A stretch of DNA of 28,227 nt. Source: a virus. The notes beneath the pieces were generated by a model, which made no database searches, was not told the origin of the DNA, and worked only from the letters and a program-made list of their open reading frames with translations. The stretch spans positions 1-28,227 of the IMG/VR virus record IMGVR_UViG_3300029268_001092; one strand, 5' to 3'. Both the position numbers and the translations under genes were made by a program. Positions 22,340 to 28,082 of this stretch are shown here, in pieces (position 1 is the stretch's first letter; each line of letters begins with the position of its first letter).

Positions 22340-23671
22340 TCATGATGCGGTCATCGTCTTTGGTTTGAACTTTTGCAGGTATTGTTTCCAGCATTTGAGG
22401 AAATCCGTTATCTCTGGTTCTGGCGGATCGTCGTGCTTCCCGCGGACTTGTAAAATGTCTAACTTTTTCGGCTCAAGTTCCAGCGTGAAGTAAGGCGTTT
22501 CTGGTTGATCGGCTTTCCGGATGAAAAGGATCAGCGTTTTGGAGTCCGCCATCTTCAGATCATATCCGGATTTTCCGACACAATGGCAAAGCGCACTCCC
22601 TTCTCTCACTAGTTCCTGAACGTTGTGTGCAATCTGAATAACGAAGATTTGGTTGTGAAACTCAAGCTTGGTGTATTTTTTCGCCACTTTTGCAATCCGT
22701 CCGTTGAGCTCCTGATTGTCCCTCGCAACGACCTTGTCAATGTAAAAGTCATGCCATTTTGCCAAGTCGTTTGGGTAGCGGTCTTTGGTGTCTTCCATGC
22801 TGACGAATTGTTTGGCAGCGTTGAAATAGTCAAAGTAGAATGAAACGCTCTGCTTGATTTCTTTCAGGTACTGCACCAAGCGGTTTGGGGTCTCTCCAAA
22901 AAGTTTTTTATTCTCTTGATATGATTGGTGGTTGAGGATGTCTTGCAGAGCCACGTATCTGTCGACTCCGACCTCTTCTTTGAAAGCGTGCAGAATGGTG
23001 ACGTAATTGGCCTCCCTGGCACTGATAAATTCTTGATTTTGAATGATGTATTTTCGGAATGGCTTGTCTTTTTTCATCCTAGCAAGGAACCTTGAGTCTG
23101 ATGCCAAATGCATCATCCGGGCCCTGGAAAGCATTTCAAGCTCAGGAAATACCCGATAATGGGTAATGTAATCGATGATCCCAGTGAGGGACTGTGCTCC
23201 GCAATACCTTAGCTTCTCGTCCAAAGCAATGATCTGGTTAAGTGAGAAAAGGTCATATTCCGTGATCCGGAAATATTTTCGATCTGCGGTCTGCCACTCA
23301 ATGTCCAGATCCCAGCTGTAATAACTGAAATATGACATTCTTTTTGGCTCCCAGATGGTGCTGTAGCCCCCCACTCCATGACAGTCCGTATCTTTCACGA
23401 GCACTGTATCAAGCCCCTCGATTCTCCGGACAACCTCTTTAATTTCCAGGGGATGGCCAACTCTGCGTTTATTTCTTCGAAAGGCCCATACCCGTTCGAG
23501 GAATTTCCCCCCAAACAGTTCGATCGTGCTGGCGTACTGTGTTTGTTTTTGACCAAATCCTGCCAATGGAAGCTTTTCGATTTCCTCCCTGAGATTTTCC
23601 GGCTGGTCCAGTTCGGCTTTTTTTAGCCGTTCAATCAACGGGCCATCGTAGATGAAAATGTGCTCCTTCAT
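22340..23671 (-). CDS. PcfJ-like protein
   Basis: 443 aa. The C-terminal ~130 residues carry the PcfJ-type signature: LVREGSALCHCVG (residues 354-366), a YD...ILFIRK strand, YFTLEL, then ILQVRGKHD (residues 406-414). The N-terminal two thirds are helix-rich and less conserved. PcfJ was named from the pheromone plasmid pCF10 of Enterococcus; its function is not established. It follows the PcfK-like gene by 1 nt and lacks a good ribosome binding site, so the two are probably co-translated. Full length fits the family. It lies between SSB and HNH genes, suggesting DNA metabolism. Confidence 0.85.
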   Translation of the reverse strand: MKEHIFIYDGPLIERLKKAELDQPENLREEIEKLPLAGFGQKQTQYASTIELFGGKFLERVWAFRRNKRRVGHPLEIKEVVRRIEGLDTVLVKDTDCHGVGGYSTIWEPKRMSYFSYYSWDLDIEWQTADRKYFRITEYDLFSLNQIIALDEKLRYCGAQSLTGIIDYITHYRVFPELEMLSRARMMHLASDSRFLARMKKDKPFRKYIIQNQEFISAREANYVTILHAFKEEVGVDRYVALQDILNHQSYQENKKLFGETPNRLVQYLKEIKQSVSFYFDYFNAAKQFVSMEDTKDRYPNDLAKWHDFYIDKVVARDNQELNGRIAKVAKKYTKLEFHNQIFVIQIAHNVQELVREGSALCHCVGKSGYDLKMADSKTLILFIRKADQPETPYFTLELEPKKLDILQVRGKHDDPPEPEITDFLKCWKQYLQKFKPKTMTAS

Positions 23672-26214: not shown

Positions 26215-26477
26215 TCTTCAGCTCTTGCCTCCGCTTCCTTGCACTCGATCACCACAGCTTCGCATCCACTGTGGTTCCTGATTTCACTCGCAAGCTTGTG
26301 CGCTCGGTTGTGTCCGAACTTCATGGCTGTTTTTTGCTGGGGCGAGAGAAACAGCTTTCGCTCCCCGAAGCATACTGCACCTTTTTCCGGACGATTCGTC
26401 ACGAATAGCTCGTGCTTGGAAAATTGTTTGTCCATGTAGGTTACTTTCACGATGTAATCGTTTGTTCGTTTGTTCAT
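26211..26477 (-). CDS. Hypothetical protein, 88 aa
   Basis: Starts MNKRTNDYIVKVTYMDKQFS, overlapping the replisome organizer stop (ATGA) and the next gene. Positively charged and strand-rich in the first part; the middle reads PQQKTAMKFGHNRAHKLASE, and the end is an acidic Ala/Glu helix. No family recognised. Coupling to the replication gene hints at a replication-related role. Confidence 0.68.
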   Translation of the reverse strand: MNKRTNDYIVKVTYMDKQFSKHELFVTNRPEKGAVCFGERKLFLSPQQKTAMKFGHNRAHKLASEIRNHSGCEAVVIECKEAEARAEE

Positions 26478-27358
26478 TTTATCGGCACCTCCTCGTCTGT
26501 GTTGAACATTCGCTCAATCTCTTTTCTTTCTTCAGGAGTAAGAGATTTTGGGCTTGGAGATTCTGGGGTTTTGGTTCTTTGGGCAAAGTCCTTTTCGTAC
26601 TTTTCGTACCAGTCTGGAAGCGGGAAGACCCTTTTCCCGTTAGGCTTCGGGCTCCCAGCAATGATCGCTTCGTCTTCCCATCGCTTCTGGTTCAGCCATG
26701 TAGTCGGATGCGGAATGAATTGTTTGTTTTGCCATTGTTCCGTCTTCTTGAACTTTTCCAATGCTTCTAGAATCCGGGTTTGAAGTTCATCGCTCGGTTT
26801 GTTCTTTGAATACCATTGTTTCGTTTTTTCTTTGGACTCTTTTCTTGGGTAGTTTCCCCAGAAAACCCGGAACTGATCCAAAGGGTCGGGAAGTATACTC
26901 TCTATATCTTTATCTTTATCTTCTTCTTTATCTATTGCGTTACGTTGCGTTACACTGTAACGGTCTGTAACGTTACCGAGTAGTTTTTCCCTGTGTTTTG
27001 CAACCCTAAGTCTAGTTTGCTCCCGGATTTTGTCCATTGCCTCAACGTTTTGGTACTTTTCCCAATTTGAAACCATTAACAGCTCATCAAAAGTGTCAAG
27101 CATTTCATAGTTTTTAAACACCGCAAGCGCAAGCCGAACGATTTTTACATCTTCGTCGAACTCGGTTGCCATCATTTCTTCACTGAAGGGGATGTCCTTT
27201 GTAAAGTAGATCCTTCCGCCGTCGTTCGTTTCAGCTGCCAAACAGAGAATGTGCAACCAAATTATGATGATGCTTTTACCTTCCGGCATTTTGATGATCT
27301 GTTTTATCTTTCGATTGTTGAATAGATCTGTTGACAATTTGATCCACTTAAGGCTCAT
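26474..27358 (-). CDS. Phage replisome organizer (DnaD-like) with origin repeats inside the gene
   Basis: 294 aa from the ATG at 27358 (GGAGGG 7 nt upstream). The first ~120 residues match the phage replisome-organizer N-terminal family: WIKLSTDLFNNRKIKQIIKM, IIIIWLHILCLAAE, DDVKIVRLAL-like helices and MVSNWEKYQNVEAMDKIREQ. A Lys/Glu/Asp-rich linker follows, then a C-terminal part with RVFWGNYPRK and FIPHPTTWLNQKRWEDE, common in Bacillota phage initiators. It binds the phage origin and recruits the host helicase loader. Iteron-like repeats sit at 26935-26976 in the linker-coding part. Confidence 0.9.
   Translation of the reverse strand: MSLKWIKLSTDLFNNRKIKQIIKMPEGKSIIIIWLHILCLAAETNDGGRIYFTKDIPFSEEMMATEFDEDVKIVRLALAVFKNYEMLDTFDELLMVSNWEKYQNVEAMDKIREQTRLRVAKHREKLLGNVTDRYSVTQRNAIDKEEDKDKDIESILPDPLDQFRVFWGNYPRKESKEKTKQWYSKNKPSDELQTRILEALEKFKKTEQWQNKQFIPHPTTWLNQKRWEDEAIIAGSPKPNGKRVFPLPDWYEKYEKDFAQRTKTPESPSPKSLTPEERKEIERMFNTDEEVPIK
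26893..26976. other. Candidate phage replication origin: iterons plus AT-rich tract
   Basis: Inside the replisome organizer gene, TTGCGTTAC occurs at 26935-26943 and 26945-26953, and CTGTAACG at 26955-26962 and 26965-26972, with a further CGTTAC at 26971-26976. Each pair has a 10-bp period, about one helical turn, and the CGTTAC/GTAACG core is inverted between pairs. A strand-biased AT-rich tract with repeated CTTTAT (26893-26934) adjoins it as a likely unwinding region. Lambda and many other phages have such an origin inside their initiator gene. Confidence 0.6.
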
Positions 27359-27374: not shown

Positions 27375-28082
27375 TTACTCTGCGCAGATCTCAACCGGCT
27401 TACCGGTTAATTCCATGATGCCCTTTTTCATTTCTTCAGCATTGGAATTTCGATTGCTCAGATGCAATAGGTAAATTTTTTTGGTTTTCTCGAGGTCGAG
27501 CTTCTTCAGGAAATTTTTCACGTTTTCAAACTCCATGTGACTGGACAGTAGTCGCTTGCTTGCTGCCACCGTCACCAATTCTCTCCGCAAATTTTTCTCC
27601 AGCAGCTCGAGCTGGTAATTGCATTCGATCATGATGTAATCGAATTTGTCTGAAAATTGTTGACTGATGTAAAATGTATCAGTCGCGAAAAACAAGGTTT
27701 CCTCCGTGACGGTTGAATAAATCAGAAAACCGACCGGATCCGCTGCATCGTGTTTCGTCTGAAAGGCCAGAACCTTAAACGATTTGATTGTGATCAATCG
27801 TCCAGGAATCAGCGGGTTCCCGCGATATTTGAATGCTCCAAGATCTAGGACTGCAATTGTCCCTGGGGATGCATAAATGTCGCAATAGGGGGCGATGTCC
27901 TTCACGTACTTGCAGTGATCCTTGTGATCATGGCTAATCAAGCAGCCATCCAGACATGTCAGGGGGATCTCGTCCCTAACCCGGTCAATTGGGATCCCGC
28001 ACTCAACCATCAGCCGGGAACTGCCATCAGAAATTAGATAGCAGTTCCCTTTGGATGACGAGGCTAATGATTTAATCTCCAC
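27375..28082 (-). CDS. Metallo-beta-lactamase-fold hydrolase
   Basis: 235 aa; start is a GTG at 28082 with AGAGG upstream. The zinc motif HDHKDH lies at residues 51-56 (SHDHKDH), with further likely ligands H111, D135 (FFATDTFY) and H182 (SSHMEF), the usual order for the fold. It is a small MBL-fold protein of the YycJ-like type found in Bacillota phages next to recT and DnaD genes, and probably acts on nucleic acid, for example as a nuclease in replication or recombination. It overlaps the organizer's longer frame but not its chosen start. Substrate unproven. Confidence 0.88.
   Translation of the reverse strand: MEIKSLASSSKGNCYLISDGSSRLMVECGIPIDRVRDEIPLTCLDGCLISHDHKDHCKYVKDIAPYCDIYASPGTIAVLDLGAFKYRGNPLIPGRLITIKSFKVLAFQTKHDAADPVGFLIYSTVTEETLFFATDTFYISQQFSDKFDYIMIECNYQLELLEKNLRRELVTVAASKRLLSSHMEFENVKNFLKKLDLEKTKKIYLLHLSNRNSNAEEMKKGIMELTGKPVEICAE

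Follow-up and report, generated by a model that had tools for sequence, protein, structure and literature searches.

Replication origins situated inside the gene of their own initiator are a known kind of arrangement, exemplified by lambda O, gene 38 of phage SPP1 and ORF20 of the Staphylococcus phage 80alpha. In SPP1, oriL, comprising repeats and an AT-rich unwinding element, is located inside gene 38 and is bound by the product of that gene, G38P; a second, distant origin is designated oriR (PMC6316719). ORF20 of 80alpha, a replisome organiser gene, is also thought to carry the origin (PMC5499656), and the 80alpha record has a rep_origin annotated within gp20.

Comparison of the locus with known systems

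The stretch of DNA analysed here, the window, is the IMG/VR virus record IMGVR_UViG_3300029268_001092 (28,227 nt, positions 1 to 28,227). It contains an initiator (replisome organiser) gene coding for 294 amino acids from the ATG at 27358, or for 306 if the alternative upstream TTG at 27394 is used. The protein belongs to family PF09681 (Phage_rep_org_N), scoring 134 bits against a curated cut-off of 23.3 over profile positions 1-121 of 121. Its C-terminal domain matches PHROG families 270 and 9327, which comprise replication initiation and primosomal proteins, and in relatives this part is a DnaB_2 or Phg_2220_C domain. No helicase or helicase-loader gene was recognised within the 28,227-nt window.

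The published layout of SPP1 oriL, in which repeats are combined with an AT-rich unwinding element inside the initiator gene, is also found in the window. The resemblance to lambda O is one of order, since a DNA-binding domain, iterons, an AT tract and a C-terminal domain follow one another in the same way within one gene. An earlier, sequence-only reading of the window had called this a lambda-O type of arrangement, which is correct as to layout but not as to family: no significant similarity to lambda O (PF04492) was detected (hhalign probability 0.5, E 0.12), the window protein matches only PF09681, and no homology was found to lambda O, a member of a different family. The iterons differ too, lambda having four annotated 18-bp sites and the window five 6-bp cores in direct and inverted orientation, two of which overlap. 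Gp20 of 80alpha, with an HTH_36 trace, a Phg_2220_C domain and no PF09681, is unlike the window initiator, and no GTAAC or GTSAC array was found in its gene. Rep (ORF13) of the Lactococcus phage TP901-1 resembles it in having an HTH, a linker and a DnaB_2-like C-terminal domain, with TTTTCCAGATGTGG repeated in the linker DNA, but its N-terminal family and its repeat sequence are different. In the Bacillus phages 035JT001 and 055SW001 a PF09681-like initiator gene is adjoined by helicase-loader genes, as may be compared with SPP1 G38P.

Table 1. Positions of the initiator gene, its coding parts and the elements of the candidate origin in the window.
Feature	Position	Strand	Basis
Initiator (replisome organiser) gene	26474..27358	-	PF09681 E 3.4e-39 and PHROG replisome organiser matches
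PF09681 domain codons (winged helix and first part of C-terminal basic helix)	26987..27346	-	Profile match, AlphaFold2 model, fold comparison
Basic helix codons, residues 105-129 (T115, R118, V119, H122, R123); proposed iteron reader	26972..27046	-	AlphaFold2 helix and class-following columns
Fifth iteron core, CGTTAC on +, overlaps fourth core	26971..26976	-	Sequence count
Fourth iteron core, GTAACG on +	26967..26972	+	Sequence count
Third iteron core, GTAACG on +, opposite in orientation to the 26938 and 26948 cores	26957..26962	+	Sequence count
Second iteron core, CGTTAC on +, GTAACG in gene direction	26948..26953	-	Sequence count
First iteron core, CGTTAC on +, GTAACG in gene direction; nearest the AT tract	26938..26943	-	Sequence count
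AT-rich purine tract, AGATAAAGAAGAAGATAAAGATAAAGATATAGAGAG in gene direction; proposed unwinding element	26893..26934	-	Least stable 45 nt of gene
Codons of the C-terminal domain (residues 150-272, approximately); proposed to recruit the helicase	26540..26910	-	PHROG 270, 9327 matches

Iteron array and AT-rich tract

The array, spanning 26938-26976, consists of five CGTTAC/GTAACG cores inside the linker codons of the PF09681 initiator. The coordinates bear out the paired elements of the sequence-only reading: TTGCGTTAC occurs twice (26935-26943 and 26945-26953) and CTGTAACG twice (26955-26962 and 26965-26972), with a spacing of 10 bp within each pair. That reading was also right about the inverted orientation of the cores, but with a count of four it missed the fifth, which together with the fourth forms a perfect palindrome, GTAACGTTAC, at 26967-26976. 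The AT-rich tract with CTTTAT repeats that it placed beside the array was confirmed, CTTTAT being present at 26908, 26914 and 26926. In the gene direction the array comes first and the AT tract follows, the least stable 45 nt starting 2 nt past the last iteron. The GC skew does not switch at the array site, where it is uninformative since the contig ends 1.2 kb beyond.

If an ATATAT run is left out, the array is the densest 6-mer cluster of the 28-kb window, with five copies in 60 nt; in dinucleotide shuffles of the whole window (n=100) there were never more than four copies of any 6-mer per 60 nt. The array and the AT tract probably constitute a phage replication origin within its own initiator gene, read mainly by the basic helix of the initiator, as judged from the sequence comparisons given below. 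In a scheme drawn after established phage systems, the PF09681 protein would bind the five GTAAC/GTTAC half-sites and assemble there, the assembled protein would open the AT-rich tract beyond the array, and the C-terminal domain would recruit the replicative helicase. Specific reading would be mainly the task of the basic helix, residues 105-129, just past the winged-helix domain; this helix would enter the major groove, with residues 115, 118, 119, 122 and 123 on one face.

Conservation among PF09681 genes and iteron classes

PF09681 genes were taken from IMG/VR, GTDB genomes and annotated phages; the 423 genes form 115 clusters at 80% domain identity and have 178 representatives at 90%. An iteron array is present at the same place in nearly all 115 clusters, an example being GTAACGTTACATGTAACGTTACAGTAACGCAGTGTAACGCAACAGAAGAAGATAAAGA in Streptococcus phage Javan393, and the phages and prophages with this layout have hosts among Listeria, Streptococcus, Enterococcus, Staphylococcus, Lactobacillus, Clostridia and Bacillus. 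In 126 of 156 genes the last iteron gives way, immediately or after no more than 60 nt, to the least stable 45 nt. In two genes, L142 and L420, the domain is present and no array was found in the sequence examined. The linker iteron array with its AT tract, which the window shares, is a property found in this study and lies outside the Pfam definition of PF09681. Comparison of the repeats among relatives, which the sequence-only reading had set as a test of its iteron-type origin, found them conserved nearly wherever the protein is, and at the level of compared sequences there is good support for an origin lying within the gene of the initiator; the earlier observation is right and somewhat understated.

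De novo counting of 6-mers gave p above 0.05 in 43 of the 115 clusters and is unsuited as a universal test, as classes whose cores are degenerate or just 4-5 bp long escape it; the classes were therefore assigned by motif. Among the 178 representatives, class A (GTAAC) accounts for 91, class B (GTCAC/GTGAC) for 33, class C (CTAAC) for 24, class E (CGTCTGAC) for 15 and class D (TGAC in GTCAATGACAAG) for 5, and the remaining 10 are of other types, most with repeats of their own. PF09681 iterons come in no fewer than five sequence classes, which track residues 115, 119 and 122 of the initiator. Two remote relatives, L437 (Fusobacterium phage Funu1) and L445 (Streptococcus phage Javan585), have a further repeat, GGACATTGTC / GGACAATGTCC, after the domain.

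The profile columns that follow the class most strongly are 113, 117 and 120, corresponding to these three residues of the window protein, in the stretch just before the array. In the AlphaFold2 model they lie on one continuous helix (residues 105-129) that comes after the winged helix, with a pLDDT of 80-88 over most of its length, below the confidence of the winged helix. The winged-helix fold matches the DNA-binding domains of CRP and NtcA (Z about 10).

Switches between classes were scored on a tree built from columns 1-104 only, with the helix left out. At column 117 (residue 119), V, Q or T changes to K or N in all 22 of 22 branch-disjoint A/B pairs, and at column 113 (residue 115) T changes to N or E in 18 of 18; column 120 (residue 122) reaches a score of 17 with 20 pairs that differ. 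In 1,000 sign flips the highest score attained by any column was 15. Columns 115 and 118, lying between the key positions, score 15 and 12. When only strongly supported branches are used, 6 A/B pairs remain, and all six are consistent at residue 119 (p 0.03). For relatives less than 55% identical in the body, columns 113, 116, 117 and 120 predict the class in 73% of cases, against 54% for the majority class, 47% for the whole body, 44% for the winged recognition helix and at most 53% for random body columns. The key of four residues agrees with the class in 167 of 168 cases, in sample. The recognition helix of the winged helix, which carries no class signal, was rejected as the main specificity determinant.

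The iteron class predicted from the helix type also agreed with the iterons in further genes. L100, L103 and L110 have the class B helix type, and an insertion displaces their GTCAC array by 276 nt within the same ORF; among the new cases that fit the code are also L442, L443 and L444. In the Ruminococcus phage phiRgPS_6 a helix of class B is joined to a body nearest to class A, and the iterons are GTCAC, while Streptococcus phage Javan374 (about 32% identical) has the class A helix type and GTAAC iterons. In the Bacillus phages 035JT001 and 055SW001, which have the class A helix type, the array is absent from the gene, and each genome contains one region with a GTAAC cluster. That of 035JT001 (L446 1431-1629, about 31.1-31.3 kb) is an intergenic TGTAAC array about 12 kb away, followed by a stretch of 20% GC, and is a candidate origin distant from the initiator gene. 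The similar array of 055SW001, at 30437-30548, was missed by the strict spacing pattern and matched by a looser one, and is a softer case.

Exchange of helix and iterons

Some pairs of genes are nearly identical except in the helix patch. Identity before the patch, in the helix and after it is 97%, 30% and 98% for L229/L230, 94%, 30% and 99% for L096/L177, 99%, 60% and 95% for L376/L391, and 97%, 50% and 84% for L153/L162; in some other pairs the C-terminal part differs as well as the helix patch. Where the bodies of two genes are identical to 75% or more, a pair with one iteron class in common shares 67% of helix residues and a pair with different classes 39%. These alignments show helix and iterons moving together, as a single internal cassette, between genes that are otherwise nearly identical. 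Because the codons of the helix directly adjoin the iterons, reader and target can be replaced by one recombination patch; such a patch would change the specificity of the origin and leave replication intact. The linker had been described by the sequence-only reading as free to adapt, which is not simply so: the adjacent helix appears to have to match the iterons, and both change together.

Owing to the physical linkage of helix and iterons, their correlation stems in part from shared inheritance of one recombined patch, and linkage could by itself bring the helix along with the array. It could be supposed, accordingly, that this protein does bind a genuine origin, with the winged helix or another part doing the reading and the helix and iterons covarying only as neighbours in one patch. 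Winged helices often read DNA, the exchange of the patch between nearly identical genes is clear, and other columns of the helix also contain some class signal. Yet the signal is concentrated at columns 113, 117 and 120, on one face of the helix, and is weaker at columns 122-128, which are nearer to the array; this distribution argues for a functional coupling beyond linkage. There is, moreover, no class signal in the winged-helix columns, and the exchanged pairs combine different iterons with bodies of 94-99% identity, so that an unchanged winged helix serves different iterons. The code also persists where the array is displaced by 276 nt or lies 12 kb away. Reading by a part other than the basic helix is consequently considered unlikely.

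A role of the array as an operator, through which the initiator or another regulator would control transcription of its own operon, is improbable in place of an origin, although the two roles are compatible with each other. Initiators often autoregulate, and short palindromic repeats within a gene could serve this purpose. The array is, however, located in the middle of the gene, away from the position of a promoter, and the least stable tract, consistently adjacent and with its codon choice forced, is what an unwinding element would be expected to show. In SPP1 and lambda this arrangement serves as an origin (PMC6316719).

Selection on DNA rather than peptide

Of 63 class A genes, 57 have GTAAC in two or more reading frames, where it encodes different residues. 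Codon choice in the AT tract of relatives is extreme: Ile is encoded by ATA in 93% of cases (31% elsewhere), Arg by AGA in 92% (38% elsewhere) and Asp by GAT in 97% (66% elsewhere). In L018 the reading frame ends within the array, which is retained, and in L443 (Mammaliicoccus phage phi6229, about 1380-1528) the initiator is divided over two genes, one DNA-binding and the other DnaD-like, and the iterons lie in the region that separates them. Since the sites differ in frame, codon choice is extreme and the array persists in split genes, the comparison indicates that it is conserved for its own sake and not for the encoded peptide. That the repeats are a side effect of repetitiveness in the linker peptide or of biased codon use is scarcely credible: the linker is of low complexity and its acidic part requires NAN codons, but synonymous recoding of these 20 residues brought some 6-mer to five copies in just 4 of 50,000 trials, one DNA motif is read in different frames among relatives, L018 and L443 keep the array outside the reading frame, and the recoding and frame tests led to rejection of the linker peptide as the cause.

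In the AT tract of relatives, corresponding to 26893-26934 of the window, AGA recurs mostly every 6 nt with the wobble A forced. This periodicity may have a role in strand opening or loading beyond mere AT richness.

Proposed recognition code and the basic helix

On balance, the evidence favours a wider proposal for PF09681 initiators, in which the origin is read by a basic helix of bZIP-like character appended to a winged helix of the CRP type, and the helix and iterons form a specificity cassette that phages exchange as one piece within an initiator gene left otherwise unaltered. The corresponding residue-to-iteron code would be T-R-V-H/GTAAC, N-R-K-Q/GTCAC, M-Y-M-Y/CTAAC and D-Y-Q-R/CGTCTGAC, and would be usable to find origins anywhere in a genome.

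The likeness to the basic region of eukaryotic bZIP proteins draws on general features of these proteins and serves as a lead only. It consists of a basic helix with class-following positions at i, i+4 and i+7, an N-x7-R spacing in classes B and D, and half-sites that read TGAC in class D and TGACGTCA in some members of class B. The window protein itself has T115-x7-R123 and not the Asn-x7-Arg spacing; Asn is present at residue 115 in 28 of 33 class B, 5 of 5 class D and 16 of 91 class A proteins, class A being that of the window. No leucine zipper was seen, the predicted helix ending at residue 129 and being followed by the linker with the iteron codons. Searches by Pfam, single sequence, profile and solved structures gave no bZIP match, the queries being short and the power low. 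Bacterial bZIP-like regulators, RptR and TodS, were proposed earlier (PMC12255303).

A literature search, conducted outside most subscription journals, found nothing on origins or specificity in PF09681 initiators, an earlier mention of some arrays being possible; within this scope the coupled reader-target cassette and the code appear to be new. The analysis offers precise candidate origins for hundreds of temperate phages and prophages of Firmicutes, including staphylococcal, listerial and streptococcal ones, together with a testable recognition code connecting a few helix residues with the iteron sequence. With reader and target side by side and moving together, it also suggests that origin specificity may change in one step, which would have consequences for the incompatibility of co-infecting phages, for satellites using a phage initiator and for origin-based phage-resistance plasmids.

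Other genes of the window

A PcfJ-like domain (PF14284, E 9e-29), belonging to a family whose name comes from a conjugative-plasmid gene, is present in a 443-amino acid protein encoded at 22340-23671 (-) in the phage early region. Directly upstream of the initiator gene, at 27375-28082 (-), a metallo-beta-lactamase-fold hydrolase (PF12706; phrog_392) is encoded. Its match to the anti-Pycsar protein Apyc1 is below threshold (E 4.7e-4, 20 bits against a cut-off of 50), and the hydrolase is a possible candidate for a counter-defence enzyme.
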